DNA from: a virus
Length of the DNA: 49,557 nucleotides
Direction: 5' to 3' (one strand)
Virus record (IMG/VR): IMGVR_UViG_3300037245_000401
Coordinates: 1 to 49,557 of that record
Positions within the stretch are counted from its first letter, which is position 1. Each line of letters opens with the position of its first letter. The position numbers were made by a program, and so were the translations under genes. The notes under the pieces are model-generated. The model made no database searches and was not told the DNA's origin. It worked only from the letters and a program-made list of their open reading frames with translations. Shown here piece after piece: positions 128-43,054 of the stretch.

Positions 128-747
128 CCCGTAGATGACTGAGCTGAACCTGCACCAGCTTCGTTATAGGCTATGATAATGTCATTGCCATCACCTTCAA
201 GGATAGCAAAGCCAATGTAGTCAATTGCACCAAGTGCAGCTGCGTCACCATCGAACACTCCTTTGGCATTTGCTGCTTGGGCTGGCTCAGCGAGTCCTAC
301 GAAAATACCCAAGTCTGCGTCAGTTATAGTGCTGACCTTTATTCTAGTCTCCCACCAGAATCGTTTCTGCTCACCAGTCTTAGGCGTCCTGATAATTCCC
401 TGAACATTAAAACCAGTAACGGCACAGTTTACGTCCTGATCTGTCGTATCTCCAAGCTGCTGGAGTACGCCAATATCATTCTGAGGTATGGAGAAATCTA
501 CAAGCTTAGTAGTTTCTACAAATTCATACCAGTTAATATCTCCGCCGAGTCTACCCACACTTGACGTAAAGTCAGTGCTGCTTGCAGTTTCTTTGAGAAC
601 TATAGAGTTCTTAAAGTCATCAAACATGTGAATACCGCTGCCGGGGTCTTCTTGGAACTTCTGGATCGGGCAGTCAGCCCAGATCGAAGGACTAGGCCCA
701 CGCGCTACAATATTGTCGGCTACTTTTGATCTTACAACATCTCCCAT
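1..747 (-). CDS. Lectin-like structural protein, N-terminal 249 residues (gene continues across the circular junction to 49302)
   Basis: Start ATG at 747 is preceded by AAGGAA. The frame stays open to base 1, resumes at 49430 and stops at 49302, giving a 291-residue protein. The N-terminus carries RGPSPSIWADCP followed by a DDF motif. The middle has WWETRIKV and IGFAILEGDG segments, and the C-terminus ends DWVRFAQEY. The same layout is seen in two other proteins here (9472-10521 and 46693-47736). The pattern of short beta-strand blocks with a conserved FxxDG near the end resembles concanavalin/LamG-type jelly rolls; that fold call is inference. It lies directly downstream of the major capsid gene, which suggests a decoration, fibre or other abundant virion protein. 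Confidence 0.85.
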   Translation of the reverse strand, partial: MGDVVRSKVADNIVARGPSPSIWADCPIQKFQEDPGSGIHMFDDFKNSIVLKETASSTDFTSSVGRLGGDINWYEFVETTKLVDFSIPQNDIGVLQQLGDTTDQDVNCAVTGFNVQGIIRTPKTGEQKRFWWETRIKVSTITDADLGIFVGLAEPAQAANAKGVFDGDAAALGAIDYIGFAILEGDGNDIIIAYNEAGAGSAQSSTGLITPEADTYIRLGIKLVILGNSAKIRFFADGVDLGDDAAVDV

Positions 748-779
748 TTCTATATTCCTTTTAAATAAATTTTGAAAAC

Positions 780-807
780 AGTGAGCCACCCGAATTGGCA
801 GCTCACT
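780..807 (-). terminator. Hairpin after the major capsid gene, terminator-like
   Basis: Read leftward, a 7-bp perfect stem (AGTGAGC/GCTCACT) closes a 14-base loop and is followed by GTTTTC. It sits between the capsid gene stop (825) and the next start (747). The T-run is short, so it may attenuate transcription or stabilise capsid mRNA 3' ends and not stop all transcription. Confidence 0.6.
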
Positions 808-824
808 ATAATAACTTACAACTA

Positions 825-1913
825 TTAACTTGCCTTATGAAGAACAAAGCCAGCTGTACGCCTGTTAGTACACAGGTTATTATGTGCACCATCAAGGAAG
901 ACTGTGAATACAGTATGCTGACCACGGTCAGTCATAGGTTCGCCTTCGTCCATCCAGTAACCATCCTGAACATAAGGTACGAACTTAGCGAAGTCAATAC
1001 AGTAGATAGGAGTATAGTCTGCCCCTTCAAGCTGCGGAATATAAACTACCGGGAGTCTGTTGATGTAGCACAGCCCACCGTCATCTACCTTAAGATTGCT
1101 AAGAACATCTTTGCCAGTATGCTTATCGTCTTTCTGATCAGCCAAGTCCATCAGTCTCGCTGTGGTATCGCTATCAGTGTAAATACGCTTAGCCGCAGTG
1201 CGTTTTCTTGATGGATCGTTTATGAACAGCGGGACTTTGAACCGTGTCTTCATAAATGCTACACGGAAAATCTTGAGCATAGCATTATCAATGTTCACAT
1301 AAAGTGCACAGTAGTTGCGCCATTTAGCTTCAGCCGCTGCATCAATACCAGCGATAGTCGAAGTAAGACTGCTATCCTGAAACTGAGCTGCTACGCCATT
1401 AAACCCAGCACCAGTGTTAACTGTACCGCTACTATCGGTGAAGAAATTCAAGTAGTAAGGCACACCGTAAGGATGCTTATCATCAGTCGCAGTATCAGGC
1501 GTCTTCCATGCCCGCTCTTCGATAAGATTGGCCAAGTCCCACAGTCCGTCTACACGTCTGGTCTTCAGCAAGTTAACGAAACCCTTGGCAGAATTTTTGT
1601 TCCGCATGATCTCGACCTTGTCCCAACTGTAGTTGGTCCCGATCTGAGTCCACGGCACAGTGATAGTATGCAAAACACTACCGACTGCCGGTGTATCAGT
1701 ATCATACAGCCTACGGTAACTGGCGTTACCTGTGGGATCAAGCATAACTTTACGCTCGATATTCGGGCCACCGTCAATCACCATTCTTTCATTCTGGTAG
1801 ATGCGACAAAACTCGTAATCCTCATTGTCCCACGCTACCTCAAACTCTTGATCTGGCAGATCGTTGATCGTGGATGCGATCAAATCTGCTAGTTGAGCAT
1901 TTTTTATTCCCAT
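825..1913 (-). CDS. Major capsid protein
   Basis: This 362-residue protein sits immediately downstream of a scaffold-like gene and in the order terminase-portal-scaffold-capsid, the usual place for the shell subunit. It opens MGIKNAQLADLIAST and has no signal or membrane segment. It contains tryptophan/aspartate-rich stretches such as VPWTQIG, SWDKVEIMRNKN and DGLWDLANLIEERAWKTP. I recognise this as the type of single-domain capsid subunit common in environmental podovirus-like genomes, presumably HK97-fold. The start has AAAGGA 7 bases upstream and a hairpin follows the stop, consistent with high expression. Sequence alone does not show the fold, and no processing site is obvious. Confidence 0.82.
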   Translation of the reverse strand: MGIKNAQLADLIASTINDLPDQEFEVAWDNEDYEFCRIYQNERMVIDGGPNIERKVMLDPTGNASYRRLYDTDTPAVGSVLHTITVPWTQIGTNYSWDKVEIMRNKNSAKGFVNLLKTRRVDGLWDLANLIEERAWKTPDTATDDKHPYGVPYYLNFFTDSSGTVNTGAGFNGVAAQFQDSSLTSTIAGIDAAAEAKWRNYCALYVNIDNAMLKIFRVAFMKTRFKVPLFINDPSRKRTAAKRIYTDSDTTARLMDLADQKDDKHTGKDVLSNLKVDDGGLCYINRLPVVYIPQLEGADYTPIYCIDFAKFVPYVQDGYWMDEGEPMTDRGQHTVFTVFLDGAHNNLCTNRRTAGFVLHKAS

Positions 1914-1943
1914 AACTTATCCTTTTAATTAAATAATTATTGA

Positions 1944-3098
1944 CTATTTTCCAAAAACTTTTGCTAGTCGTTCAGACGCATTGGCTATTGCCTTCTCAGT
2001 CGTCTTCTTACCAGTGTCACCTTCCACGTTGGCTACTCTGCCAGAGGGCTTAAGTGAAATTCCCTTTGACCTCTTCACTACTTTAGCCATAATATCCTCA
2101 CGGATAATCTTTTCTCTGATAGGCTCAGTAACCATAAGATGCGCCCTCTCTAGGGCTTCTGCTAATGGCATTTCTCTTCCGAGTGCCACAGCACCCACGA
2201 CCAGTTCATCTGCTCTTTCTAAGACTGCTACGCGGTTCATCATCTCAGCGGGCATTAAAGTAGTCCATTTAGTGTCCCCTTGCTCTGGGGCACCGTACTC
2301 GCTGACATACTTCGCCATATCCTTAGAACCAAAGAAGCTCTCTATCTGCTCGGCAGAATGTTTATCCTGCTCTTCTGAGAGTTCCTTGCTGTGACTGCTG
2401 GCAGCATCAGTCGTTATAACTGATTGCTCGTTCATCTGATCCTGCATGCTTACAATCTGATTCTGTTGCCCGTCTATCAGATCAGCTAAAACATCACCAT
2501 GCTCTGCCCGTATACTCGTGGTGTCTACCTTCTTGTATGCTGGTTTATCAGCTGGCTTGTCTTTCTGCTTATCTTCAGCATCTTTTTCGGCCTGCTGTTT
2601 CTTGAATCTGCCAATGTCGGCAAACTCCTGTGAAGCACGATTCATAGACTCATGCATCTGGCCAAATGTCCTCAATGCTAGATCAGGATCAGCCTTCATA
2701 AGCTTGACTATATCATCGTCAGTGTACTTGTTGTGGATCGCAGCTCTGTAGTAGGCATCAGAAATCTGTGGCTTATCTTTCTGATCTTCATCCTTATGAG
2801 CTTCCTCATCCTTGTCATCTTCAGTGTCGTCCTTGGCCACATCGTCTTCTTCGTCCTTCTTGTCATCATGCGGGGTAGGGTCATCTTCCTCATCAGCATC
2901 CTCTGCCGGTTTCTCATCTTCATCTTCCGGGGTAGAGTCTTCTTCGTCGTCGGATTCATCTGCCACATAATCACCATCAAGAACTTTTAGTCTTTCTTCT
3001 GTCTTCTCTAGCAAATCTTTTTCATCATCTGCCTCTTCTGTCTGGACTTTTACTTCAGCCGCTATTGCATCTTTGTCAAAATCTTTTTCCTCTGCCAT
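1944..3098 (-). CDS. Scaffold-like capsid assembly protein, highly acidic N-terminal third
   Basis: This is a 384-residue protein. Residues about 1-115 are almost entirely D, E and K. A charged helical region with likely coiled coil (about 150-260) follows, then a basic C-terminal tail (KRSKGISLKPSGR ... SERLAKVFGK). An acidic/helical body with a basic tail directly upstream of the capsid gene is typical of phage scaffolding proteins, whose basic C-terminus contacts the coat protein. No protease signature (such as a catalytic Ser/His motif) is visible. An unusually strong hairpin (3124-3140) lies 26 bases before the start. Confidence 0.7.
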   Translation of the reverse strand: MAEEKDFDKDAIAAEVKVQTEEADDEKDLLEKTEERLKVLDGDYVADESDDEEDSTPEDEDEKPAEDADEEDDPTPHDDKKDEEDDVAKDDTEDDKDEEAHKDEDQKDKPQISDAYYRAAIHNKYTDDDIVKLMKADPDLALRTFGQMHESMNRASQEFADIGRFKKQQAEKDAEDKQKDKPADKPAYKKVDTTSIRAEHGDVLADLIDGQQNQIVSMQDQMNEQSVITTDAASSHSKELSEEQDKHSAEQIESFFGSKDMAKYVSEYGAPEQGDTKWTTLMPAEMMNRVAVLERADELVVGAVALGREMPLAEALERAHLMVTEPIREKIIREDIMAKVVKRSKGISLKPSGRVANVEGDTGKKTTEKAIANASERLAKVFGK

Positions 3099-3123
3099 TT
3101 CATTTTTCCTTTAAATTAAGCTG

Positions 3124-3140
3124 CCCGGCAACGAGCCGGG
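3124..3140 (-). other. GC-rich intercistronic hairpin
   Basis: CCCGGC and GCCGGG pair around a 5-base loop between the zinc-ribbon gene (stop 3147) and the scaffold-like gene (start 3098). No T-run follows on the leftward transcript. An mRNA-stabilising or processing element is therefore more likely than a terminator. Confidence 0.5.
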
Positions 3141-3146
3141 GGTAGG

Positions 3147-3542
3147 TTACTTAACGGATGCTCCACATTCCCAATTTTTTATTGTCATAACTTTCTTTGG
3201 TCCGGTTCTAAGTTTGCCCGGATGCTTCACGAACCCTACTTTTTCTAGGTAAGCTTCATGCTGTGCATAATTCTCCATGATCGGCTGACCTTCAGGTGTT
3301 ATCTTAACATCTGGGAAAGCTCTCTTATGCTCTTCGATCTGATCCATGCTAACTGCCATAGTATCAGATATGACAGGATTGTCATACCTATCAGATGCAG
3401 CATGAGGGAGGTCTGCCCGGAAGTCACGCTGGATAATACGTGAACACTCATCACATTGTACTATATCCTCAGACTCAGACATGGGCCTGACCACCTCTTT
3501 CGTTACCATGCAGTGAAAGCACTTAAATGAATATGTTGGCAT
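3147..3542 (-). CDS. FmdB-type zinc-ribbon protein
   Basis: The first 45 residues match the FmdB/putative regulatory zinc-ribbon pattern: MPTYSFKCFHC, then VQCDECSRIIQRDFRA, giving two CxxC knuckles (C8/C11 and C30/C33). The remaining 80 residues are a phage-specific extension with charged helices and a final WECGA. Proteins with this N-terminus recur between portal and scaffold/capsid genes in tailed phages, but their role is unknown; zinc binding is the only safe prediction. It is flanked by a 3-base gap to the upstream lysine-rich gene, so the two are likely translated together. Confidence 0.72.
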   Translation of the reverse strand: MPTYSFKCFHCMVTKEVVRPMSESEDIVQCDECSRIIQRDFRADLPHAASDRYDNPVISDTMAVSMDQIEEHKRAFPDVKITPEGQPIMENYAQHEAYLEKVGFVKHPGKLRTGPKKVMTIKNWECGASVK

Positions 3543-3544
3543 AG

Positions 3545-3838
3545 TTAGTACCCCCCACTTTTGCTAGATGAATTATGCGAGTTGTGAGAACTCTTCTTCT
3601 TTCCTCTAAGTTTAGCTATTTCTTTGTCAGATAGACCTGACTTCTTGAGCCGCTTTTCAATATCTGCGGTTCTCTTGGTCTTAAAGCTTTCCTTTTTCTT
3701 CTTCTTCTTTTTGTAGCCGCCGACCTTCTGCATACCTTCGCCCCATTTCCTCTGAGTCTCTTTCTGCTTGGCGAAGTATCCCTTCACTTTTTTCTTGAGC
3801 CGGTCTACCCAATTATCTTTCTTCTTTTTCTTCGGCAT
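3545..3838 (-). CDS. Small lysine-rich basic protein
   Basis: This 97-residue protein starts PKKKKKDNWVDRLKKKVKGYF, has a second run of seven lysines near residue 50, and ends in a Ser/His/Asn tail. Its net charge is extremely positive. It lies between portal and zinc ribbon and starts from a good site (AGGAG 6 bases upstream). Such a protein could neutralise DNA in the capsid or act as a head-completion/DNA-binding protein; this is inference. No family recognised. Confidence 0.7.
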   Translation of the reverse strand: MPKKKKKDNWVDRLKKKVKGYFAKQKETQRKWGEGMQKVGGYKKKKKKKESFKTKRTADIEKRLKKSGLSDKEIAKLRGKKKSSHNSHNSSSKSGGY

Positions 3839-3846
3839 AGTTTCTC

Positions 3847-5628
3847 CTAAAAAGTCTGCTGGGCTTCACCAGCTGTTGTCTGAGCGTCCATGTTATCCTG
3901 CTGCCCCTGAGAAGTACTCATCTTAGGAGTAGTAGACACACCTTTGTTCTGACCGGGTTGCTGCTGTCCGCCACCTTTACCCGGATTCTGCGGACCCATC
4001 TGCATCATAATATTCATCTTCTGTTGGAACTCAGGATCGTCGAACCAACCCTGTACATCCTGTGTTAGCCCCTGCTGCTCTGCAAGGTCAGTCAGGCACC
4101 TCTGCAAATTAAATGCAACACCCATCTGCATAGCAACCATGGCAGCTTGAGTTACTGATGGTAAAATATTTACTGCAAACTCTGTCATCAGCCGTGCCCG
4201 CTGTTGAGGGTCCGCTGGTGCCAACGATTTTGCCTTAAGTTTAAAAGTATAATTCCAAAAATCACCTTGTCTCTGCTCAGGTGTCAGCATAATCTGCTGA
4301 TACTCTCCACCTGTTGATCTCTTTATAAGTGGTAGGTTTATCAGCGGATCATTGTGAAGATACCAGCCTATCTTTTTATTAACTTCAGCAGTCTGATCAA
4401 TGATTATACCTCTGGCATCCTGTATGCCTGATGCGGCATTAGACTGCCTTATAGAAGCTTTAGTCGCTGTCTCTTTTCCGCCAGAACGTGTATCCTGACC
4501 GGCTACTGTATCAGGATCACCGGCCATGTAGTTATACCACATATGAAATGTCTGGGTCATTTCCTGATTCTTCTTAGTGGCCCCGCCGAATGACAAAACC
4601 TTAGCAGCCTCTGGATCAGTTACCGCCACATAATCACCATCTGTGGCATCAAGGAGGTCCTGTGCCTCATCAGCAAATTGTGGTTTAAAAACAAGGATGT
4701 CTTTTTCTCTATCAGCCTGCTCCATCATCCGTTTGAATGTCCTGTTGGCTATCTTGTGCATGTCATAGACCTGAGCTACAGGCGCGATTGGCAGGGGATT
4801 ACCCTCTATTACTGGTGTAAATGACAAGAATGTATACTGACCGTCATTGGGTCCATAGTAGTCCTCTGTACGCAAATACTTCGGAAGTATAATCTGTCGT
4901 GGATCAGGTGTAGTAACCATAGCCTGCGCTTCTGGGACCCAACACTCTACTACATCAACGTAATCTTGCAGTGTGTACGACTCTGAAGTGGCCGCTGCCT
5001 TTTTGGTGAAATTATCTACTCTCTCAGATTCATTGAACTTAGATGTAGGCAACCTCATTACCATATCGTGATCATAGCCTGTGGTGTCTAACAAAATCTG
5101 TCTGGGCACCCTTACCCGATTACCTAAAAAACTTGCCTCACGTAATGAATTGCATATCGGATCAAATGTAAAGTCATCAAGATCAACTGTCTTAGTATAT
5201 ACTTGACCGGGGTCAATTAGCTGATCACCATACTGTATCACGCTTTCAGCTGAAGCTATACTCGTCTTCATAATTCCGAATGCGAAGAACGCTGAAGCTA
5301 TCCACGCTCTCAGAGTCTGCTTAAGCTTGATGTCTATGTTAACCTGATCAATAGCCAGTCCCAGCATTTCAGCATAGGGCTTGTGGGCCAAGAATTTTGA
5401 CTCTACTACGTTGATAGGATTGTGCGTAACCAGTGAAGGCACAAATGCTGCCAGAGTCTTAAACATAAGATTAAGCGGCTCATCACCAGTCATTCCCTGA
5501 CTATCACGATAGTACTGTCCTGCGAATGCACGCATAAACATAGCTCTGGCTCTGCGGTATTTTTTAATTCGCTCGAACCCTCTTCGCACTACGTTTTGAA
5601 ACTTAACTGGGGTTATCTCGGCAGGCAT
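3847..5628 (-). CDS. Portal protein
   Basis: This 593-residue protein lies immediately downstream of the large terminase (3-base gap) and upstream of capsid genes. That position, its length and its content fit a podovirus-type portal: a basic helical N-terminus, many aromatic/proline-rich loops, and a Q/G-rich flexible C-terminus (GPQNPGKGGGQQQPGQ). The portal forms the dodecameric DNA channel at one capsid vertex. The C-terminal 60 residues are low complexity (Q, G, T, S), as in portals whose barrel/tail extends into the capsid. No sharper motif is diagnostic, so the call rests partly on gene order. Confidence 0.8.
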   Translation of the reverse strand: MPAEITPVKFQNVVRRGFERIKKYRRARAMFMRAFAGQYYRDSQGMTGDEPLNLMFKTLAAFVPSLVTHNPINVVESKFLAHKPYAEMLGLAIDQVNIDIKLKQTLRAWIASAFFAFGIMKTSIASAESVIQYGDQLIDPGQVYTKTVDLDDFTFDPICNSLREASFLGNRVRVPRQILLDTTGYDHDMVMRLPTSKFNESERVDNFTKKAAATSESYTLQDYVDVVECWVPEAQAMVTTPDPRQIILPKYLRTEDYYGPNDGQYTFLSFTPVIEGNPLPIAPVAQVYDMHKIANRTFKRMMEQADREKDILVFKPQFADEAQDLLDATDGDYVAVTDPEAAKVLSFGGATKKNQEMTQTFHMWYNYMAGDPDTVAGQDTRSGGKETATKASIRQSNAASGIQDARGIIIDQTAEVNKKIGWYLHNDPLINLPLIKRSTGGEYQQIMLTPEQRQGDFWNYTFKLKAKSLAPADPQQRARLMTEFAVNILPSVTQAAMVAMQMGVAFNLQRCLTDLAEQQGLTQDVQGWFDDPEFQQKMNIMMQMGPQNPGKGGGQQQPGQNKGVSTTPKMSTSQGQQDNMDAQTTAGEAQQTF

Positions 5629-5631
5629 AGA

Positions 5632-7539
5632 TTATCCTTTATTAAAGTCAAAAGAAGTTCTCCAACTACGAGACTTCTTATTTTTCCTAAGTTTAGCTAG
5701 CTTCCTTGCACCCACTGACCTAGCTGGATAGCCCGGTCCTGTATGCTTAGTCTTACCAAATTCTTTAGAGTCGATGGTTAGGGCATCAGCTATTACTACA
5801 TCACCATGTGTCTTTCTGGCGGACGCATTCTCTACAACAAGGTCTGAAGGACCAATGCCACCATCCTTAAAGTAGATATATGTTTCCATCTCATCTAAGC
5901 CAAAGATACTGTGGTTAACATACCCACCATGAGCTATAGCTCTGTCATAAGCCCCTAACAACTCCTGCTTACTGTCCCTGCTGGAATGCCATCCGTACTT
6001 ACTCATCTTCTTTTCGCTGCGATCACCTATCCTATCCATGTAGTAACAGTATGGAAACTTGAAGGTCTTAACAATTTCTTTACCGAAATCTACGCCGGGG
6101 CCATTCTTCTCCCATTTCATAAACGGCAGACTCTTCGGCTTTCTACCACCGCACCATATAGCAAGGGCTATGGCCACTCGTGCCATGGCATGAGGCGGAG
6201 TATTGGCGTCACGCCATTCAGCGATCTTCTCACCAGTCTCACGACACTTGATCGAGATCACAGAGTTTGAAGCACCCTGACCTTTACCAATATCAATACC
6301 GAACACATAAGTCTTCGTCTGGTCAGGTCTACCTAGAGTCAACTCGCTCCACACTCTTAGTGGTCCATTTTTACCGCGCGTCAACTTTACGGCTCTGTAA
6401 TCCCTCATCTTTATTTTCTGGAACACAGCAGAGTCGGCTATCTTCTTATCAAGATTTATATGATAACGATAACGAGCTTCTCTGCCGAATAGAACTTTAT
6501 GTTTCTTGACACTATCCAGTGAGAAAAACAAGTCACCAGACTCAGTATCCTTCATGTCAATTTCACGAGCCATTTCTTTTGGTGATCTACGTTTACCTTC
6601 TACTACATACCATGGTGACGTGATGTGCCACTCGCCATTATCGTCTTGATAAACAGTGCGCCCGCAACCTTTTTCAGGATGCTCCCACCATGCCAGCTGG
6701 AACACTTCTATCTGGCCTGACTTTTTCCAGCGGGCATACTCAGTGCCCGGACCAGCAGGGGTCGAGTTAACGATCCTGAATGGACCTACATCAGATGTTG
6801 ACGACCTAATCAGTGATCCTTTTTCTACTTTGGCAAATTCATCAAGAAGAGTTACTTTGCGCCTGTCACCTGAGCCTGCATTCTCTGTAGTTGACTCGCC
6901 ATCTATACATGATCCATTGAGAATGTTCTTCATGTGCATCTTGGTCCTATACTTCTGACCTACTGCGCAACCCGGAGGAACCATCCATTCTGGCAACCAT
7001 TTATTTATATAGTCATGTTTCTGGAACAAAGCTTTCATGTTACCAGCTTTGTCTACATAATCTTCGGTACGTGACATCTCAAGCAGCTGAGACTCGTCTA
7101 CAAATAACCATACCCAGTGCATGAAATCTATCCCGCACCAGCTAGCACCCATATCTCGTGACTTATCTATCAGTATGTCTTTCGGGTGCTTGAGTCTATA
7201 CACGAGCTTCTCGAACAGCTCGTCCTGTACAGCCCATGTTATAAATGGAACATGCTCATACTTCACCACTGTCTCGTGTCCAGTCAGTGGATCAATATCC
7301 TTTTGATGGTATGTCCATGCAAATGCATTTACCCAGAATTTCAAGGATTCTCCGCACAGGCTCATTAAGTCCTGCTGTAGTATTGGGTCCTTCTCTGCGT
7401 TACGAAGAAGCTCTCCCCTCCATATCACATTCTCTTGTGGCCGTTTAGGCACTTTAATGCCAGATAATGGACAAGTCCAATACTGCTGAACATTAGGAAA
7501 CGGTGCCCTTAGAACTGGCTTAAGGAGTGTATCAAGCAT
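5632..7539 (-). CDS. Terminase large subunit (packaging ATPase/nuclease)
   Basis: The 635-residue protein has an ATPase half with a Walker-A-like loop at residues 126-133 (KSRDMGAS, the classic-variant K/R-S-R-x-x-G-x-S form) and Walker B LLDEFA at 231-236. The nuclease half begins at YVFGIDIGKGQG, where D416 is the expected first metal ligand. A further acidic site lies near the C-terminus (HGDVVIADALTI). It powers DNA translocation into the prohead and cuts concatemers. Its start overlaps the 3' end of the small-subunit candidate by 8 bases. The C-terminal tail is basic, as is common for portal contact. Confidence 0.9.
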   Translation of the reverse strand: MLDTLLKPVLRAPFPNVQQYWTCPLSGIKVPKRPQENVIWRGELLRNAEKDPILQQDLMSLCGESLKFWVNAFAWTYHQKDIDPLTGHETVVKYEHVPFITWAVQDELFEKLVYRLKHPKDILIDKSRDMGASWCGIDFMHWVWLFVDESQLLEMSRTEDYVDKAGNMKALFQKHDYINKWLPEWMVPPGCAVGQKYRTKMHMKNILNGSCIDGESTTENAGSGDRRKVTLLDEFAKVEKGSLIRSSTSDVGPFRIVNSTPAGPGTEYARWKKSGQIEVFQLAWWEHPEKGCGRTVYQDDNGEWHITSPWYVVEGKRRSPKEMAREIDMKDTESGDLFFSLDSVKKHKVLFGREARYRYHINLDKKIADSAVFQKIKMRDYRAVKLTRGKNGPLRVWSELTLGRPDQTKTYVFGIDIGKGQGASNSVISIKCRETGEKIAEWRDANTPPHAMARVAIALAIWCGGRKPKSLPFMKWEKNGPGVDFGKEIVKTFKFPYCYYMDRIGDRSEKKMSKYGWHSSRDSKQELLGAYDRAIAHGGYVNHSIFGLDEMETYIYFKDGGIGPSDLVVENASARKTHGDVVIADALTIDSKEFGKTKHTGPGYPARSVGARKLAKLRKNKKSRSWRTSFDFNKG

Positions 7540-11186: not shown

Positions 11187-11343
11187 TACTGACCTCCGCG
11201 ACCATTACGCCAAGGCATTTAGCGCATATATACTGATGGAGCTTAAAAACTCCCTGCTTACTTTCCATCAGAGCTATGGGAACAGTGCTGCCACATTTAT
11301 CAGTGCAGCGCAGGGTGCCTCTCAGAATTCTTCTGGTATCCAT
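11143..11343 (-). CDS. Small zinc-ribbon-like protein
   Basis: The 66-residue protein contains LRCTDKCG near residue 11 and YICAKCLGVMV near residue 38, two cysteine pairs (CxxxC and CxxC) spaced as in a small zinc ribbon. AAGGAG lies 6 bases before the start. It belongs to a run of small Cys-rich proteins (11.1-12.2 kb) in this accessory block. Function unknown; nucleic acid or protein binding is the general expectation for such folds. Confidence 0.55.
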   Translation of the reverse strand: MDTRRILRGTLRCTDKCGSTVPIALMESKQGVFKLHQYICAKCLGVMVAEVSNEISKPGAVSKDGP

Positions 11344-11429
11344 AGTAATCTCCTTAAGTTTATCTGAAGCAGCAGCTTTGGTCCCTACGATTAGTACTAC
11401 TGCCCCAGATTATAAAATGCCGAGGCGTA

Positions 11430-13132: not shown

Positions 13133-13296
13133 CTTCTTTCTCCAATTAAATAAGGTAGTCCCTCTATATACTCCACCGAATTAGCTGATCTTGCACTATT
13201 GGCCGGACAAATCCCTGAATTTTATGCAGATTTCCGTTTATCCGTATAATATAGCCAGATAGTGCCAGTTATACTCTATCGGGGTGTAGATAATAA

Positions 13297-13323
13297 AGGT
13301 CTACTAGACCTATACTGTCTACA
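13297..13323. repeat. Palindromic element 1 of GTCTASTAGAC family
   Basis: AGGTCTACTAGACCT is a perfect palindrome about a central C. It is followed after 5 bases by GTCTACA, a half-site of the same motif. Sister copies lie at 13451, 13520 and 13994. Confidence 0.75.
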
Positions 13324-13450
13324 TTATAAAAATATTATATATCTCCGTCGACCTAGTTAGGGGTCCCGACTTCCTCACGTAAAAATGTCGAGGGTGTCAC
13401 CGGGGGGCGTCCGATAACTACGTGTTGGTCCGATAATACACAGACATAGC

Positions 13451-13477
13451 AGGTCTAGTAGACCTCGTACGTCTACA
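13451..13477. repeat. Palindromic element 2 of GTCTASTAGAC family
   Basis: AGGTCTAGTAGACCT is a perfect palindrome about a central G. It is followed after 5 bases by GTCTACA, exactly as in element 1 (154 bp away). Confidence 0.75.
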
Positions 13478-13519
13478 GATCAGGCGTAGGCAGGGCGAAA
13501 CACCTATTATAGAGGTAAG

Positions 13520-13542
13520 AGGTCTAGTAGATCTAGTAGACC
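13520..13542. repeat. Palindromic element 3 (extended)
   Basis: GGTCTAGTAGA is joined directly to TCTAGTAGACC, giving a double-length element. A TGTATGTATACATACA palindrome follows at once. Confidence 0.7.
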
Positions 13543-13632
13543 CTGTATGTATACATACATTACATGCGACAATCGTAAGTCGTTACTACATAAGGGGTTA
13601 ACGTTATCCTGGACATTGACGTGTATTGTACT

Positions 13633-13667
13633 GTTCATATTTGAACTAAGCATATTCATATATGAAC
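13633..13667. promoter_or_regulatory. Tandem operator-like palindromes
   Basis: GTTCATATTTGAAC (13633-13646) and ATTCATATATGAAC (13654-13667) share the consensus RTTCATATWTGAAC. Their centres are exactly 21 bp apart, two helical turns, so two dimers would sit on the same face of DNA. This is a typical arrangement for a repressor or initiator pair. Confidence 0.55.
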
Positions 13668-13685
13668 ATTTGCTGCCATGGCAGA

Positions 13686-13713
13686 TGGCGTAGATAGATA
13701 TTTACCTACGCCA
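13686..13713. repeat. TGGCGTAG hairpin, copy 1
   Basis: TGGCGTAG and CTACGCCA form an 8-bp perfect inverted repeat around ATAGATATTTAC. A near copy is at 13935-13963. Confidence 0.6.
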
Positions 13714-13748
13714 CCATAACCCACTATCCTATAAGCACTTACATAAAT

Positions 13749-13900
13749 ATGGTATAGGTGGCATAGTAAAACTTGACCTCACTCCTTATAGGAATAGAGA
13801 TGTACACAAGATAATAATAGTAGACACACTATAAACACTAATATACGTCTATATTTTACTATGAAGGAATATGACTTTTTACTATACCACCTACGCCATA
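13749..13900. repeat. Long inverted repeat pair
   Basis: The segment 13749-13771 (containing GGTATAGGTGGCATAGTAAA) and the reverse complement of 13877-13900 (GGCGTAGGTGGTATAGTAAA) match over about 24 bp with about three differences. The arms point towards each other across roughly 105 bp and contain the GGYRTAG core of the hairpins on either side. Confidence 0.55.
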
Positions 13901-13934
13901 TCTTCATAAATATAGTAGTAGTAAAGGTTTACAG

Positions 13935-13963
13935 TGGCGTAGATAGATTATTTACCTATACCA
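13935..13963. repeat. TGGCGTAG hairpin, copy 2
   Basis: TGGCGTAG pairs with CTATACCA (one mismatch, one G-T) around ATAGATTATTTAC. The loop is almost the same as in copy 1, so the whole element is repeated. Confidence 0.55.
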
Positions 13964-13993
13964 CATGCCACGGCAATCTCTAACGGATAGAAT

Positions 13994-14020
13994 AGGTCTA
14001 GTAGATGTTTAATGTCTACA
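13994..14020. repeat. Palindromic element 4 of GTCTASTAGAC family (half)
   Basis: AGGTCTAGTAGAT keeps the left half of the palindrome. GTCTACA follows at the same distance as in elements 1 and 2. It ends 45 bp before the early promoter -35 box, a position suitable for control of that promoter. Confidence 0.65.
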
Positions 14021-14064: not shown

Positions 14065-14093
14065 TTGACAAATGATAGCCTGTGAGTTATACT
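14065..14093 (+). promoter_or_regulatory. Sigma-70-type early promoter P1
   Basis: TTGACA (14065-14070), a 17-base spacer, and TATACT (14088-14093). This is near consensus, 40 bp before the first rightward gene, and is the likely entry point for host RNA polymerase. Confidence 0.85.
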
Positions 14094-14333: not shown

Positions 14334-14362
14334 TTGACTTCTCATATAAAATAGTGTATAGT
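14334..14362 (+). promoter_or_regulatory. Sigma-70-type early promoter P2
   Basis: TTGACT (14334-14339), 17-base spacer, TATAGT (14357-14362). The spacer end and -10 box (ATAGTGTATAGTA) are the same as in the promoter at 18256. It begins inside the gap after the first gene and drives the next gene at 14412. Confidence 0.85.
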
Positions 14363-14737: not shown

Positions 14738-14793
14738 ACTAAATATTCAATAGTAGTCAGCAAATTACGGTTGACTACTATCAAGTATTTAGT
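14738..14793 (+). other. Long two-part RNA hairpin
   Basis: ACTAAATA/TATTTAGT (8 bp) and ATAGTAGTCA/TGACTACTAT (10 bp) form one stem with a 4x4 internal loop and a 12-base apex. It lies after the zinc-ribbon gene and 33 bases before the first leader hairpin. There is no T-run, so RNase processing is as likely as attenuation. Confidence 0.6.
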
Positions 14794-14825
14794 AGTTCTT
14801 TAAAAAGTTAATAAGCGGATAAATG

Positions 14826-14874
14826 GTTAATGGTTGCCAGTTGTGGATATTGTGCCGCACTGGTTACCGCTAAC
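14826..14874 (+). promoter_or_regulatory. Covarying leader hairpin 1
   Basis: GTTA-AT-GGTTGCCAGT pairs with ACTGGTTACC-GC-TAAC: a 4-bp outer stem, a 2x2 internal loop, then a 10-bp inner stem (one T-T, one G-T) and a 17-base loop. It is followed by CTATTTATTACTTTAATGAAGGG and the start of the 58-residue gene. It is preceded by TAAATGGTTAA, matching the TAAATGCTTA box of the other copies. Confidence 0.7.
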
Positions 14875-14903
14875 TATTTATTACTTTAATGAAGGGACAA
14901 AAG

Positions 14904-15080
14904 ATGTATGCAATAAAGTTTGAACGCAAGAAAGCCGAAAAGCTTACAACTAAAAGACTGCGTAACAGGTTTACATCAAGACTGTTTAAGCTCAATAACT
15001 TCTATTCGTTATTGAAGAGTCAACAGGAATTAGTCGATAATGCTGTTAATGAATTTCTGGCAGGTAAGGCGGTGACATAA
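14904..15080 (+). CDS. Small basic protein, duplicated family, copy 1
   Basis: A 58-residue, strongly basic helical protein. The start at ATG 14904 is chosen because GAAGGG lies 10 bases upstream and the paralog at 15569 shares exactly this start. The C-terminal two-thirds (LTTKRLRNRFTSRLFKLNN, then LVDNAVNEFLAG) is almost identical to that copy. A nucleic-acid-binding role is possible. Its stop overlaps the next start (TAATG), implying coupled translation. Confidence 0.7.
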   Translation: MYAIKFERKKAEKLTTKRLRNRFTSRLFKLNNFYSLLKSQQELVDNAVNEFLAGKAVT

Positions 15081-15217
15081 TGAAAAAACTTCGTAGGATA
15101 GAACTTTGGTGGTCGAATTATTATAAGTTTGGCCGGAAATTTTACAAGTTTAACTGCGGTAAGAAACTTTATTACTATCGGTTAGGCAAATTAGGTCTAT
15201 TTATCAGAGGTAAATAA
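15080..15217 (+). CDS. Small basic aromatic protein
   Basis: A 45-residue open frame coupled by TAATG to the preceding gene. It is very rich in K, R, Y, F and W (MKKLRRIELWWSNYYKFGRK start; GKKLYYYRLGKLGLF near the end). It is too short for family assignment. In the second cassette the equivalent slot is filled by an unrelated 72-residue gene (15745-15963). Confidence 0.55.
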   Translation: MKKLRRIELWWSNYYKFGRKFYKFNCGKKLYYYRLGKLGLFIRGK

Positions 15218-15291
15218 CATGGAATTTGGAATAACCTTCTTGATAATGTATTGGTTAGTTAAAAAGTTACATAAATATGGTATACTTTAAA
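15209..15291 (+). repeat. 83-bp direct repeat, copy 1 (second copy 15981-16063)
   Basis: The two copies, 772 bp apart, differ at only two positions. Each includes the ribosome site, a 23-codon frame and the following A. The repeat ends in ACATAAATATGGTATACTTT; its first 15 bases (ACATAAATATGGTAT) also occur in the 1-kb control region at 13741. Confidence 0.85.
15219..15290 (+). CDS. 23-residue hydrophobic microprotein, copy 1
   Basis: ATG at 15219 follows AGAGGTAAATAAC, a good ribosome site. The product MEFGITFLIMYWLVKKLHKY... has a hydrophobic core flanked by a basic end, like a single-pass membrane peptide. It is duplicated at 15991 with one amino-acid change (L to F). Alternatively the conserved DNA itself may be the functional element. 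Confidence 0.5.
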   Translation: MEFGITFLIMYWLVKKLHKYGIL

Positions 15292-15301
15292 AGGGGAAAA
15301 T

Positions 15302-15496
15302 ATGTTAAAATGGAGATATGTTGAAACGATGCAAGATCGTGACTATTATTGTGCCGCATCGGCGTGTAAAGATAAACGTCCCTTGTTTAATTGCTGTGAT
15401 AGAGGTGCAAAGTTTGACCAAAATACAACTGGAGGTTATTACTGTCTTGAATCGTTAATGTCACTTAAACGTCAGAGATACTTTACTACGAAGTAA
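15302..15496 (+). CDS. Small Cys-rich early protein
   Basis: A 64-residue protein with five cysteines (YYCAASACKD, FNCCDRG, YYCLES), basic ends, and AAGGGG before the ATG. The spacing could bind one zinc. No family recognised. The stop codon is immediately followed by the ATGCTTAA box and leader hairpin 2. Confidence 0.62.
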   Translation: MLKWRYVETMQDRDYYCAASACKDKRPLFNCCDRGAKFDQNTTGGYYCLESLMSLKRQRYFTTK

Positions 15497-15500
15497 ATGC

Positions 15501-15538
15501 TTAAGTTTTGCCAGACCTGAAAAGCTGGCAATTCTTAA
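15501..15538 (+). promoter_or_regulatory. Covarying leader hairpin 2
   Basis: TTAAG-TT-TTGCCAG pairs with CTGGCAA-TT-CTTAA around the loop ACCTGAAAAG. It is followed by CTATTTATTGTTTAATTG and GAAGGGA before the 58-residue gene copy 2. It begins 4 bases after the TAA of the preceding gene. Confidence 0.8.
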
Positions 15539-15568
15539 CTATTTATTGTTTAATTGAAGGGACAAAAG

Positions 15569-15745
15569 ATGTATGCACTAAAAGAAGCACGGATCAAACG
15601 TCAGAAGTTAACCACGAAAAGACTTCGTAACAAGTTTACATCAAGATTGTTTAAGCTGAATAACTTCTATTCGTTATTGAAGAGTCAACAGGAATTAGTA
15701 GATAATGCTGTTAATGAATTTCTGGCAAGTCGGGCGGTGACATAA
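15569..15745 (+). CDS. Small basic protein, duplicated family, copy 2
   Basis: A 58-residue paralog of the gene at 14904. The first dozen residues differ (MYALKEARIKRQK against MYAIKFERKKAEK); the remainder is nearly the same (FTSRLFKLNNFYSLLKSQQE shared). The start at ATG 15569 is fixed by GAAGGGA upstream and by the paralog. The stop overlaps the next ATG. Confidence 0.7.
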   Translation: MYALKEARIKRQKLTTKRLRNKFTSRLFKLNNFYSLLKSQQELVDNAVNEFLASRAVT

Positions 15746-15963
15746 TGGAGTATATTTGGGTTACTAAAGGCGGCTGGTCAGCGTTTAGGAGTAAAAGAGA
15801 TGCCCTTGATTATCTTAAGGGTTTACGTTTTATTGCTATTGCTGATAGGGCCGAACGAAAAGAAAAAGCACCTAGTAAAATAGTGAAGTCAAACGATGGA
15901 AATAAGTATTACTTTACTTTCGGCTGTAACAGTCGGGCCATAAGGAAAGTAATCTTACAATGA
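15745..15963 (+). CDS. Small hypothetical protein in cassette 2
   Basis: A 72-residue basic protein coupled by TAATG to the gene before it. It has an N-terminal WVTKGGWSAFRSKRDALDYL and a C-terminal YYFTFGCNSRAIRKVIL. It occupies the slot held by an unrelated 45-residue gene in cassette 1, so cargo has been swapped between conserved flanks. Function unknown. Confidence 0.6.
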   Translation: MEYIWVTKGGWSAFRSKRDALDYLKGLRFIAIADRAERKEKAPSKIVKSNDGNKYYFTFGCNSRAIRKVILQ

Positions 15964-15980
15964 TAATCGAATTAACTGGA

Positions 15981-16063
15981 GGTAAATAACATGGAATTTG
16001 GAATAACCTTCTTGATAATGTATTGGTTTGTTAAAAAGCTACATAAATATGGTATACTTTAAA
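15981..16063 (+). repeat. 83-bp direct repeat, copy 2
   Basis: This is the second copy of the segment at 15209-15291, with two base differences. The flanking 58-residue genes have diverged more, so this part is either more recently copied or under stronger constraint. Confidence 0.85.
15991..16062 (+). CDS. 23-residue hydrophobic microprotein, copy 2
   Basis: Same as the frame at 15219 apart from Leu13 to Phe and one silent change. GGAGGTAAATAAC precedes the ATG. The stop runs straight into ATGCTTAA and leader hairpin 3. Confidence 0.5.
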   Translation: MEFGITFLIMYWFVKKLHKYGIL

Positions 16064-16066
16064 TGC

Positions 16067-16104
16067 TTAAGTCTTGCCAGAACTGAAAAGCTGGCAATTC
16101 TTAA
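16067..16104 (+). promoter_or_regulatory. Covarying leader hairpin 3
   Basis: TTAAG-TC-TTGCCAG pairs with CTGGCAA-TT-CTTAA around the loop AACTGAAAAG. It is followed by TTTATTATTTAATTGAAGGG before the gene starting at 16137. Confidence 0.8.
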
Positions 16105-16136
16105 ATGTTTATTATTTAATTGAAGGGAAAAGAATT

Positions 16137-16400
16137 ATGAAAGCGAAGTTTCGTTTGTACACAGAAGATTTAAATCGGGATTTAGTCGAAAAGCTAATTG
16201 CTAAATCGTTTAAGGGATTTACAGTTATAGAAGCAATGGGCTATTGGAACGGAATCAGAGAAAACACCCTGATAATTGAGATAATCGCAACCAAACAAGA
16301 CTTGCACCTTATAGAGCATATTTGCGAAAAGATTAAACAGCTTAACAAACAAGAAGCGGTCCTATTCACAGTCGATTACATCGACTCTGTTATGATATAG
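16137..16400 (+). CDS. Hypothetical early protein
   Basis: An 87-residue protein starting ATG 16137 (GAAGGGAAAAG upstream). It begins MKAKFRLYTEDLNRDLVEKL and is of mixed alpha/beta composition with regular hydrophobic spacing, like a small ferredoxin-like fold (inference). It is the only gene between hairpins 3 and 4. No family recognised. Confidence 0.62.
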   Translation: MKAKFRLYTEDLNRDLVEKLIAKSFKGFTVIEAMGYWNGIRENTLIIEIIATKQDLHLIEHICEKIKQLNKQEAVLFTVDYIDSVMI

Positions 16401-16418
16401 TTTGAGCCTGTTAAATGC

Positions 16419-16454
16419 TTAACTTTCGGCAGGGTAAAAGCTGCCGTCTGTTAA
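16419..16454 (+). promoter_or_regulatory. Covarying leader hairpin 4
   Basis: TTAAC-TTT-CGGCAG pairs with CTGCCG-TCT-GTTAA around the loop GGTAAAAG. Compared with hairpins 2 and 3, both stems keep pairing through compensatory changes (TTAAG/CTTAA becomes TTAAC/GTTAA; TGCCAG/CTGGCA becomes CGGCAG/CTGCCG). Confidence 0.82.
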
Positions 16455-16486
16455 CTATTTATTATTTAATTTGGAGACTAGAAAAA

Positions 16487-17239
16487 ATGAATGAAAAAAT
16501 TAGCACGTGGTTGCCTGTATTTAACGGGTTTTATGGTTCAGGGTTAGAAGATGACAACGATTTAGAGTATACACTGTTTAATGATCCTGATAATACCAGA
16601 ATAAACGAGAAGCATAGAGATTGGTTGCTAGAAAATATAACGGATTATATAAACTATACTGATTATCACAACGCAATGGCAGTAGCAATTTGCTGTGCTA
16701 TTAGTGAAGAGTTGGAAAGTCATGGACTAATTAAAAGTTTTGAGTTTGATAATCTGGTTAGTCCTAAATTTTACAACTTTAGTAATGACAGCATTGATGT
16801 AATATTTGAGGTCGATATAGAATCATTGACAACGCTGTGTGAAGAGCAAGATGAAGAGTTTGAAGAGTATCTCAAACAGAGGTATACAAGCTATGACGGT
16901 TTTAGTAGCAGTTACTCAAATGACCCCCAAAAATGGTTTGGGACTTTAGACGATTATACTGATGGTCTGATTGCGAATAACACTGGTCATTGCGTAGGCT
17001 CGATATTAAACTTTTTACTCGGCGATACTGGCAATGAGTACATGAGTTTAATTTATGAAGCCGTGTCAGAGGTTTATATTGGGGAATTTATCGACTATGA
17101 AAAGTTAATCAGTGACTTTAACGAAGAGTTTGGAACCTCTTGCACTAGCATAGAAGATATTGAGCTAGGTGCCGACGCTGGCCCCGAAGAGGTAGCTCGA
17201 AGAGACATAAAAGGCCAATCGTTAATGCAGTTCGAGTAA
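16487..17239 (+). CDS. Large acidic early protein
   Basis: A 250-residue protein. The start at ATG 16487 is chosen over an in-frame ATG at 16415, because that one lies inside hairpin 4's box while GGAG precedes 16487. It is strongly acidic, with motifs LPVFNGFYGSGLEDD at the N-terminus and LVSPKFYNFSNDSIDVIFE in the middle, then a Glu/Asp-rich stretch. I have an impression that this SPKFYNFSNDS pattern recurs in mobile-element proteins, but I cannot name a family. Its high acidity would fit a DNA mimic that blocks a host DNA-binding enzyme; that is speculation. Confidence 0.65.
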   Translation: MNEKISTWLPVFNGFYGSGLEDDNDLEYTLFNDPDNTRINEKHRDWLLENITDYINYTDYHNAMAVAICCAISEELESHGLIKSFEFDNLVSPKFYNFSNDSIDVIFEVDIESLTTLCEEQDEEFEEYLKQRYTSYDGFSSSYSNDPQKWFGTLDDYTDGLIANNTGHCVGSILNFLLGDTGNEYMSLIYEAVSEVYIGEFIDYEKLISDFNEEFGTSCTSIEDIELGADAGPEEVARRDIKGQSLMQFE

Positions 17240-17243
17240 ATGC

Positions 17244-17279
17244 TTACTCGTTATCAGGTTAAAATCTGGTAACGTGTAA
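17244..17279 (+). promoter_or_regulatory. Covarying leader hairpin 5
   Basis: TTAC-TC-GTTATCAG pairs with CTGGTAAC-GT-GTAA around the loop GTTAAAAT. The stem sequence differs from the other copies but the shape is kept. The TAAATGCTTAC box overlaps the preceding stop. Confidence 0.75.
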
Positions 17280-17311
17280 ATATTTAATTGTTAAATTTAG
17301 GAGATTGTGCA

Positions 17312-17545
17312 ATGGAATTTCTAAAGAGCGGTATTGACGAACGAATTAGACAGCGTAATTTAACCGAACGAATAGTAACTTTAAGTAGTTGCCTTGATAC
17401 TAAAGATAGGACAATAGTGTTAATGAGGTTTAGAGGTGGTTACGCATACGCAGAAATAGCTAGCTTATTAAATGTCCACTATACGACAGTATCAAGACGG
17501 GTTAAAAGGATACTAAGGACCATAGCTAAATTCAGGAGGTTATAA
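17312..17545 (+). CDS. Sigma-70 region-4-like HTH protein
   Basis: A 77-residue protein starting ATG 17312 (AGGAG upstream). Residues about 20-70, LDTKDRTIVLMRFRGGYAYA followed by IASLLNVHYTTVSRRVKRIL, match the sigma-70 region 4/ECF helix-turn-helix: a bend helix, then the recognition helix with TTVSRRV. Region 2 is absent, so it cannot be a full sigma factor. It may recruit or redirect host RNA polymerase at -35 elements, for instance for late promoters. It is headed by leader hairpin 5. Confidence 0.72.
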   Translation: MEFLKSGIDERIRQRNLTERIVTLSSCLDTKDRTIVLMRFRGGYAYAEIASLLNVHYTTVSRRVKRILRTIAKFRRL

Positions 17546-17546
17546 A

Positions 17547-18035
17547 ATGTATAAAAAAGCCATTGAGAAATCATGCACAAAATGTAAGAAAGTTTACCCT
17601 GCCACAACTGGTAACTTTAGCCGAGACTCAAGGGCTTCTGATAACTTTCAGTCACAGTGTAGAACGTGCTGTAACAAGGCCAGTAACGACCATTACAAAC
17701 GTAATAGAACAGAGCGTAGAAAACAGCGTGCAGAATATAAGGCAACCAAAAGGGGCTATCTTAAAGCTATTTATCACAATATCACTTGGCGTTGTTCAGG
17801 TAAGTGTAAATTGAAGAGATTCAGGTGCTATAACGAGCAGCAGACGGTCAACAGATTTAATTCGTCTGACGATTTTGTAAACTACGTGCTCAATGTACTA
17901 AAAGTCGATCCACGTGGCAAAGACTGCCACCGTATTGACCCTGATGGTCACTATGAACCGGGGAACATTGAATTTCTTGCACCTTTAGAGCACAGGAGAG
18001 TACATGCTAGGATGCGTAAAGTAGCTATATCGTAA
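17547..18035 (+). CDS. HNH homing-type endonuclease
   Basis: A 162-residue protein. The N-terminal zinc finger (CTKCKKVYPATTGNF ... QCRTCCNKA) and the C-terminal block KDCHRIDPDGHYEPGNIEFL, then HRRVHARM, form the H-x-I/D...N...H core of HNH nucleases. The free-standing form with a leading Cys-finger is common for phage homing endonucleases that sit between early genes. It starts one base after the preceding stop and is in the same operon. It is basic, as expected for DNA binding. Confidence 0.75.
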   Translation: MYKKAIEKSCTKCKKVYPATTGNFSRDSRASDNFQSQCRTCCNKASNDHYKRNRTERRKQRAEYKATKRGYLKAIYHNITWRCSGKCKLKRFRCYNEQQTVNRFNSSDDFVNYVLNVLKVDPRGKDCHRIDPDGHYEPGNIEFLAPLEHRRVHARMRKVAIS

Positions 18036-41167: not shown

Positions 41168-43054
41168 TTACTCCAGAACTATATAAGACACAACTATCAC
41201 TGTTATAGTAGTAGCAGCGTCACTTGATCCGTGTCTTAACACCCCGCTGGCATTAGTCATAGCAGAAAGTATCGCAATACTTGAAACCCCATTGCCCGCA
41301 AATGCACCAACCCCAAAGGGTGTGTTCGTGCTAACCATAGCTCCATAAGTTTCACTTCCGTAGTCACTGTTTTTAACTGAATAAGTCCCGCTAAAAGAGC
41401 CAGCTGAAACCTGTAGCATCACAAGTGCCTTGTTGGCCCCTACTACGGCGGAGATGTCAAGGTCTTGAAAAGTGTTCGCAGCGTCTACTGTTGTAGAAAA
41501 TACTAGAGTAGAAGGAGCACCTCTTGTTACAATATCAGCCTCTGCCCACTTCATGCCACCTGACTCGCCAGAGTCAGCAGTCAGCACATAATCATTAGTA
41601 GGTCCTGTGTCCAATTTCAAGTTAGCCTCGTCAACCACATTATCAGTTATAGTCAGAGCTGTGGCACCAGTTACTTCGCTGGAATGAGTAGCGTTGGTCA
41701 CTTTAGCTGAGTTAGTTGCTATGTCACCATGGGCAAAAGTAGTCTCATGGTTCGCTGCTAGCCACGTAGCTGCCCTTGCATCAGTGTGATACTGGGTGTG
41801 ATCGTCATCGCCAAGACCGGACAGTGCACCATGATCTGTAACACCTCCGCCAGAACTAGGATTACCATCTTTGATGGCTAGGTAATCAATTAAGTAAGCG
41901 TGTACCGCGACTCCATTACCTGAGTGGCTAAATCTCACTCTCGCGGCCCCACCGCTTGTATAATCTGTTATCATACCGCCGCCATCTGCGACGCTAAAGC
42001 TGTCAAATATCAGATTACCAGTACTATCAGTCATAGTTATATCGTCAATAATATCCCAACCAGCAGTATCATAGTTATACATCTCAAGCTCAATGATATG
42101 TCCACCGCCTCCATCGTAGCTCCAGTTTATTTCAATGAGATTTGGCTCATGCCCAGCTGTAATCCCGCTGAATTCAAATGTGGCTACCCAGTTAGGGTCG
42201 GGTGGTCCAGCAGTCTCATCAGGGGCATACTCATTGCCATCATCTATAATCTGAGTATCAGACACAGAACCTACTGCTGATCCTACATCCATAGCAACAG
42301 AGTCAGCTACATGAGTCACTATTGTAATTTGGTCCTTCACTTCTGCCAAAGCAGCTTCCACGTCAGTAGCCACGAATAAACTCATAGCATCTTCGATACC
42401 TATCAAGGAGGCACCAAGAGCGTTAGCATTAGACCCCAGCTCTACTTCAGTGTAGTATCTGGCGTCAAATGTTGCCGCTGTTGTTGCATCGAATGCTGTT
42501 AATCCATTTAGTGAGCCACCCACAGTTAAATTAGCGAATGTGGGAGAGGCACCAGTATGTATATCCTGTGGGCCAGATATAGTTATCGAGCCATCACCGT
42601 CATTAGATACAGTCACTCTGTTGGCAGTGCCAGCTACCCACGCTGTTAGGTCCTCAACAGAATCTACGACCTCGCTACCATCTCCGAAAAGTAATCTACT
42701 CGCAGTAAGGTTACTGAGTGTAAGACCAGCGAATGTGGGAGAGGCACCAGTATGTATATCCTGTGGGCCAGATATAGTTATCGAGCCATCACCGTCATTA
42801 GATACAGTCACTCTGTTGGCAGTGCCAGCTACCCATGCTGTGAGATCAGATACTGATTCGACATTCTTGTCAGCATCACCATAAAGTAATCTACTCGCAG
42901 TAAGGTTACTGATGCTCAGAGAGTCTAAATTCAATCCTGCAAACGTAGGTGTAGACTCTGGACCAAGAGAAAGTTTGGAGAACGTATTAAGTGCACGTCT
43001 AAGGTCCACCCAATTGTTGTCTCTAATTCGTGGCATTGTCCTAGCTTTACCCAT
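41168..43054 (-). CDS. Tail fibre with internal sequence repeats
   Basis: A 628-residue protein. Repeats containing LTASRLLFGDGSEVV, LTAWVAGTANRVTVSNDGDG and IHTGASPTFAGLTL occur at about residues 45-115 and 110-180; this NRVTVSNDGDGSITIS/IHTGASPTF pattern is typical of phage tail fibre shafts. A possible C1q/jelly-roll domain occupies the middle (TFEFSGITAGHEPN ... IIELEMYNYD). A VTDHGALSGLGDDDHTQYH motif, another fibre hallmark, lies near residue 410. The C-terminus is beta-rich. It likely binds the host receptor. Confidence 0.83.
   Translation of the reverse strand: MGKARTMPRIRDNNWVDLRRALNTFSKLSLGPESTPTFAGLNLDSLSISNLTASRLLYGDADKNVESVSDLTAWVAGTANRVTVSNDGDGSITISGPQDIHTGASPTFAGLTLSNLTASRLLFGDGSEVVDSVEDLTAWVAGTANRVTVSNDGDGSITISGPQDIHTGASPTFANLTVGGSLNGLTAFDATTAATFDARYYTEVELGSNANALGASLIGIEDAMSLFVATDVEAALAEVKDQITIVTHVADSVAMDVGSAVGSVSDTQIIDDGNEYAPDETAGPPDPNWVATFEFSGITAGHEPNLIEINWSYDGGGGHIIELEMYNYDTAGWDIIDDITMTDSTGNLIFDSFSVADGGGMITDYTSGGAARVRFSHSGNGVAVHAYLIDYLAIKDGNPSSGGGVTDHGALSGLGDDDHTQYHTDARAATWLAANHETTFAHGDIATNSAKVTNATHSSEVTGATALTITDNVVDEANLKLDTGPTNDYVLTADSGESGGMKWAEADIVTRGAPSTLVFSTTVDAANTFQDLDISAVVGANKALVMLQVSAGSFSGTYSVKNSDYGSETYGAMVSTNTPFGVGAFAGNGVSSIAILSAMTNASGVLRHGSSDAATTITVIVVSYIVLE
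42533..42841. repeat. Recent 114-bp direct duplication inside the fibre gene
   Basis: Segments 42533-42646 and 42728-42841 (195 bp apart, in frame) differ at a single base. This repeats one shaft motif of the fibre. The identity indicates a recent event or ongoing repeat exchange. Confidence 0.85.

Follow-up and report, generated by a model that had tools for sequence, protein, structure and literature searches.

The window analysed here is the whole 49.6-kb record IMGVR_UViG_3300037245_000401, which derives from an uncultured phage. The structural genes point leftward and fill the first 13 kb together with the last 14 kb. Rightward from ~14.1 kb lies an early/replication region, and the locus described below is the AT-rich start of this region. 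Searching annotated phages with the window DNA gave no match. The window terminase has only distant counterparts among these phages (<60% identity, none covering 80%), and nothing in phages matches the 593-aa portal-like protein. An identity as a T4-like myovirus was rejected, given the ~50-kb record, the distant terminase and the missing portal match. At the gathering score, Rfam returned no match over the whole window.

Between the divergent gene blocks, at 13285-14020, there are five imperfect palindrome copies around GGTCTAGTAGACC (D2, I1, I5-I7), which are perhaps operator sites or an origin; ACATAAATATGGTATA, near 13741, is similar to the end of the 23-aa repeat described below (D7). An HNH-type gene at 17547-18035 is single in the window. 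Four copies or fragments of it lie in the early region (679-6601) of the relative L013, which lacks leaders, and represent a further route of turnover there. In the late region, a 628-aa protein (41168-43054) contains the near-exact internal repeat VTVSNDGDGSITISGPQDIHTGASPTFA.

All features of the locus lie on the + strand. Two putative sigma-70-type early promoters, TTGACA-17-TATACT at 14065-14093 (11/12 consensus) and TTGACT-17-TATAGT at 14334-14362 (10/12 consensus), precede a set of small genes separated by copies of a hairpin, here termed the leader. Leader 1 (14820-14880), with a 19-nt loop, is followed by a 58-aa gene (copy a, 14904-15080), a 45-aa basic/aromatic gene (15080-15217) that overlaps it at TAATG, a 23-aa hydrophobic frame (copy a, 15219-15290) whose last part coincides with an extended -10 promoter-like site (15259-15286), and a 64-aa Cys-rich gene (15302-15496). 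Leader 2 (15494-15545) opens with the stop codon of this last gene. After leader 2 come a second 58-aa gene (copy b, 15569-15745), a 72-aa gene (15745-15963) and a second 23-aa frame (copy b, 15991-16062; promoter-like site 16031-16058), on the stop codon of which leader 3 (16060-16111) begins. Further downstream are an 87-aa gene (16137-16400), leader 4 (16412-16461), a 250-aa gene (16487-17239), on whose stop codon leader 5 (17237-17286) begins, and a 77-aa sigma-70 region-4-like HTH gene (17312-17545; PF08281, E=2.9e-11). Gene spacing and the promoter-like sites suggest that the early RNA is polycistronic.

The initial annotation had recognized three leaders, at 14826, 15501 and 16067. These are real elements, with true starts at 14820, 15494 and 16060, and the number rises to five with the extra copies at 16412 and 17237, besides a related hairpin, also bipartite, that precedes leader 1 (hairpin 0, 14741-14800). 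The 250-aa and 87-aa genes match phrog_37559 and phrog_16022 (E=1.6e-7 for the latter), phage families of unknown function; Cellulophaga phage phi17:2 and Curvibacter phage PCA1 carry relatives of the 250-aa gene, and no leader is found near these. Structure prediction gave a single long helix for the 58-aa protein and an unusable model (pLDDT 48) for the 250-aa protein.

Leader structure

Each leader is a bipartite hairpin of 50-61 nt. Its arms, of 21 positions each, form 6 bp, a 1x1 site, 5 bp, a 2x2 internal loop and 7 bp; the arm length is rigid and the loop varies from 8 to 19 nt. From its 5' end, the element consists of UAAAUG, the 1x1 site, a UUA-rich 5-bp helix, the 2x2 loop, a 7-bp stem ending in CAG, the loop, and a mirror arm ending in UAUUUA. 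It typically starts on the UAA stop of the upstream gene and ends just before the ribosome-binding site of the next gene. Leaders 1-5 share one fold, with z values of -1.6 to -4.8 against shuffles; leader 3 by itself is only modestly below its shuffles (z -1.55). Hairpins of this geometry occur 13 times on the + strand between 14.0 and 18.5 kb, compared with a mean of 2.6 and a maximum of 5 in shuffled sequence.

In an alignment of eight leaders, which was fitted to the model and is therefore biased toward pairing, 95.8% of the cells are paired and 7 of the 18 pairs show double-sided, compensatory changes. Pairing falls to 38-45% once the pairing register is shifted by one column. Covariation scores 0.379, compared with 0.134 in shuffled alignments, and none of 500 shuffles matched the leaders in any measure. 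An earlier MAFFT alignment of six sequences recovered this structure too, five of its pairs being compensated. Furthermore, the leader pairs contain 16 G.U cells and a single A.C cell, an excess indicating that the structure acts in RNA of the + (early-gene) strand. Thus, the leader is a structured RNA of the early-gene strand, strongly backed by covariation and G.U bias.

Some features of the leader could also be read as translational control. In such a scheme, the leader AUG opens a short upstream ORF, and ribosomes that end on the UAA begin anew at this AUG, melting the hairpin, which would couple processing, or initiation at the next gene, to translation of the previous gene. The AUG is present at the hairpin base in all eight leaders and would open an ORF of 7-24 codons, one of which is in frame with the next gene. 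In five of the eight, the leader's first codon, the UAA just before or overlapping the AUG, terminates the upstream ORF in frame, and one G.U pair is kept in all eight although A-U would be stronger. However, the encoded peptides (MVNGCQ.., MLKFCQT, MLNFRQ.., MLIQYQN) are not conserved, and by eye no clear Shine-Dalgarno sequence precedes the leader AUG. A conserved upstream-ORF peptide was rejected, given that its residues are not conserved among the leaders. We regard translational control as an unlikely account of the element.

Duplicated cassettes

The proposal that the locus holds a duplicated cassette with swapped cargo was borne out. The repeats comprise a 212-nt pair (14871/15536, 86%), an 85-nt pair (15207/15979, 98%) and the leaders. 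The former (D1) covers the two copies of the 58-residue gene, and the latter carries the 23-residue frame, with 83 of 85 nt identical (2 differences). The intervening genes of 45 and 72 aa are indeed unrelated, showing no BLASTP match and a DNA similarity no better than that of shuffles (p=0.39). The two cassettes had been described as sharing order and flanks; this is so for the 58-aa gene, the 23-aa frame and the leaders, but the 64-aa Cys-rich gene is found in cassette 1 only.

The 58-aa gene on one side and the 23-aa repeat on the other, not the leaders, delimit the swap of the 45-aa and 72-aa genes; other repeats must therefore also take part. Moreover, the two 58-aa genes differ at 7 positions in the last 114 coding nt versus 19 in the first 60 nt (Fisher p=2e-5). 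Given this non-uniform identity, the two cassettes form a mosaic and are not uniform duplicates. Duplication and gene conversion alone could produce such a mosaic.

Leaders in related and unrelated phages

The relative L034 (IMGVR_UViG_3300037246_000237) encodes a DNA polymerase 65-66% identical to that of the window and has a single leader, at 1106-1157. Upstream of this leader, the flank agrees with the one before leader 1 (local score 44, against a null maximum of 28) and with that of no other leader, and the gene following the leader (1178-1939) is a 63%-identical orthologue of the 250-aa gene after leader 4. Accordingly, the block of eight frames that extends from leader 1 to leader 4 in the window (58a, 45, 23, 64, 58b, 72, 23b and 87 aa) is missing in L034, where a single leader stands in its place. 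The gene upstream of the leader-1-type flank also differs between the two phages. Hairpin 0 has a counterpart in L034 with a changed stem and a common loop and flank. A homologue of the 58-aa gene is located elsewhere in L034, at 4270-4449, with a different partner gene: it is followed by a 28-codon hydrophobic frame that replaces the 45+23 or 72+23 arrangement.

In addition, L034 has a second family of intergenic repeats of its own, TTTGAACA..CGTATAAGTATTTGA, at 738-813, 1032-1092 and 1921-1996, one copy of which abuts its leader. Its 250-aa gene is flanked by a 24-nt inverted repeat (I3), TAATATGGCTAGCGGTAATAAATG / CATAAATTACCGCTAGCCGTATTA, of 88% identity at 1088-1111 and 1951-1974 (6940-6963 and 7803-7826 in L035 coordinates); long-range pairing between the two copies is possible.

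Scanning 2.9 million viral contigs with the leader-skeleton pattern recovered only the contig of L034 and L036/L047. The latter phage carries two leaders (E 6e-9 and 2e-6) at the boundaries of its first small early genes, and these too start on stop codons. The proteins of L047 have no detectable similarity to those of the window, L034 or L013, and its terminase is different. When model R1 was run on twenty related viral records, the leader was carried by those of L034 and L036 only; the relative L013 had no leader in a model R1 search. In 257 Gb of bacterial and archaeal genomes (GTDB), the pattern matched once, within a Flavobacterium coding sequence; this match misfits the leader model and was rejected as chance. 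A single chance match in 257 Gb indicates that the pattern is specific. Close relatives were sought in viral contigs by the 58-aa protein and, separately, by the 23-aa peptide pattern, and neither search found any. Before the first early gene of L036, by eye, there is a promoter-like site with a hairpin, AATAGCCCAA...TTGGGCTATTTTC (11229-11350), which looks like an attenuator in a 5'UTR.

A rival history would be ordinary tandem duplication followed by divergence, in which a later replacement or loss affected the middle gene and the leaders, being 5'UTRs, were simply copied along without any role in recombination. The 58-aa and 23-aa copies are clearly paralogous, as this history expects, but the uneven identity of the 58-aa copies, with 19 of 60 against 7 of 114 positions changed, does not sit well with it. 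Neither do the genes after leaders 4 and 5, which are unrelated to the duplicated ones, nor the leader stems, which differ by compensated changes. Moreover, the block missing from L034 is bounded by leaders, and the leader occurs in the unrelated phage L036/L047. Being already partly refuted by L034 and L047, plain tandem duplication has in our judgement quite a small chance of being the full explanation.

These comparisons instead support a modular exchange of small early genes, as the initial annotation had suggested. The early-gene set of L034 differs from that of the window where a fixed, colinear set would have spoken against exchange, and the leader is also present in a phage whose proteins show no detectable similarity. 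As to the parts thought to permit the exchange, conserved leader/gene and repeat flanks, the leaders and the 23-aa repeat fit the role, but the 58-aa gene is itself mobile in L034.

Comparison with known systems

RNase III cuts the early mRNA of T7 at five intercistronic sites (PMC4858673). When the T7 early intercistronic gaps were folded alongside the leaders, four of six gave bipartite hairpins of similar size, likewise placed between small early genes and served by host-type promoters. The leaders share one hallmark of these R sites, a long bipartite hairpin of about two helical turns in an intercistronic position of early, presumably polycistronic, RNA. In contrast, the sequences are unrelated, and cleavage of the leaders is suggested by analogy only. 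We know of no description of T7 R sites as mobile joints common to unrelated phages.

The promoter early stem-loops (PeSLs) of T4-type phages (Arbiol et al. 2010, Comeau et al. 2014) are reported, as cited in PMC4503421, to mediate early-gene shuffling, and are titled composite promoter-terminator motifs of T4-like myoviruses. As described there, PeSLs resemble the leaders in being repeated intergenic stem-loops among small early genes. Gene content between the elements likewise varies among related phages, as with the leader 1-4 block absent in L034. The leader differs from the PeSL in having a covarying bipartite stem that often starts on a stop codon, and in belonging to a phage of ~50 kb that is not T4-like.

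If the leaders were true PeSLs, each would end one transcript and start the next. The extended -10 promoter-like site in the 23-aa repeat, with leader 3 starting beside it, would suit such a composite. The site adjoins leader 3 only, and the overall count of promoter-like sites, 31 versus 23 +/- 4.2 in shuffles, is a modest excess. Most leaders are without an adjacent strong promoter; leaders 2 and 5 lie behind coding sequence and have no strong match to a promoter just before them. A terminator-like U-tract was looked for and is present at none of the leaders, which therefore lack a defining PeSL feature, the terminator. A promoter-terminator composite is thus very improbable.

In cluster K mycobacteriophages, the SAS/ESAS elements are similar in layout to the leaders, with a repeated inverted repeat and a variable spacer just upstream of many non-structural start codons; departures within the ESAS arms do not preserve pairing in RNA, and the elements were proposed to act as DNA sites (PMC3203893). 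The leaders are set apart from ESAS by arms that pair, strongly supported by covariation and G.U bias, and reading of the sequence between the leaders and the ATG showed that the 13-bp SAS GGGATAGGAGCCC at the start codon is absent. That the conserved and partly palindromic arms, TAAATGCTTAA/TTAACTATTTA, form an ESAS-like DNA operator or cruciform bound by a protein regulating transcription is already disfavoured and hardly credible, given the compensatory changes in the arms, the ratio of 16 G.U to 1 A.C, and a spacer that varies from 8 to 19 nt while arm length stays rigid.

Discussion

We consider it fairly probable that the leaders are intercistronic RNA-processing hairpins which double as homology joints for early-gene turnover. 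Judged by analogy, they would work like T7 processing hairpins and T4 PeSLs combined. In the proposed model, the early transcription unit, driven by the putative promoters near 14.06 and 14.33 kb, would be divided by the five leader copies. A host double-strand RNase of the RNase III type may cut the hairpins, and the cuts would separate the small early mRNAs and protect their ends. Recombination between leaders, within or between phages, would then add, delete, duplicate or swap early genes with expression presumably undisturbed, because most of these genes, singly or in groups, have such a joint at either end. Such leader-to-leader exchange predicts both the block difference in L034 and the leader in L047, and the duplication of the 58-aa and 23-aa frames with swapped cargo is probably one of its products. 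This reading of exchange is based on two leader-bearing relatives, L034 and L036/L047.

More tentatively, the leader might be a portable stop-hairpin-RBS adapter that unrelated phages in the same habitat have in common. Whatever gene is inserted between two such adapters would be correctly terminated, processed and translated, so that single early genes could be traded, with translation up to the stop/AUG gating the cut.

In summary, what is new here is the RNA structure of the leader, the leader-bounded presence and absence of genes, and the spread of the leader across phages. Small early phage genes, often directed against the host or its defences, turn over very fast. To our knowledge, there is little explanation, except in T4-like phages, of how a single early gene can be acquired with expression left intact. 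In another lineage, a joint for such gene gain would be supplied by a covarying RNA element found in phages whose proteins show no detectable similarity, and model R1 provides a sequence and structure handle for swappable early genes in metagenomes.
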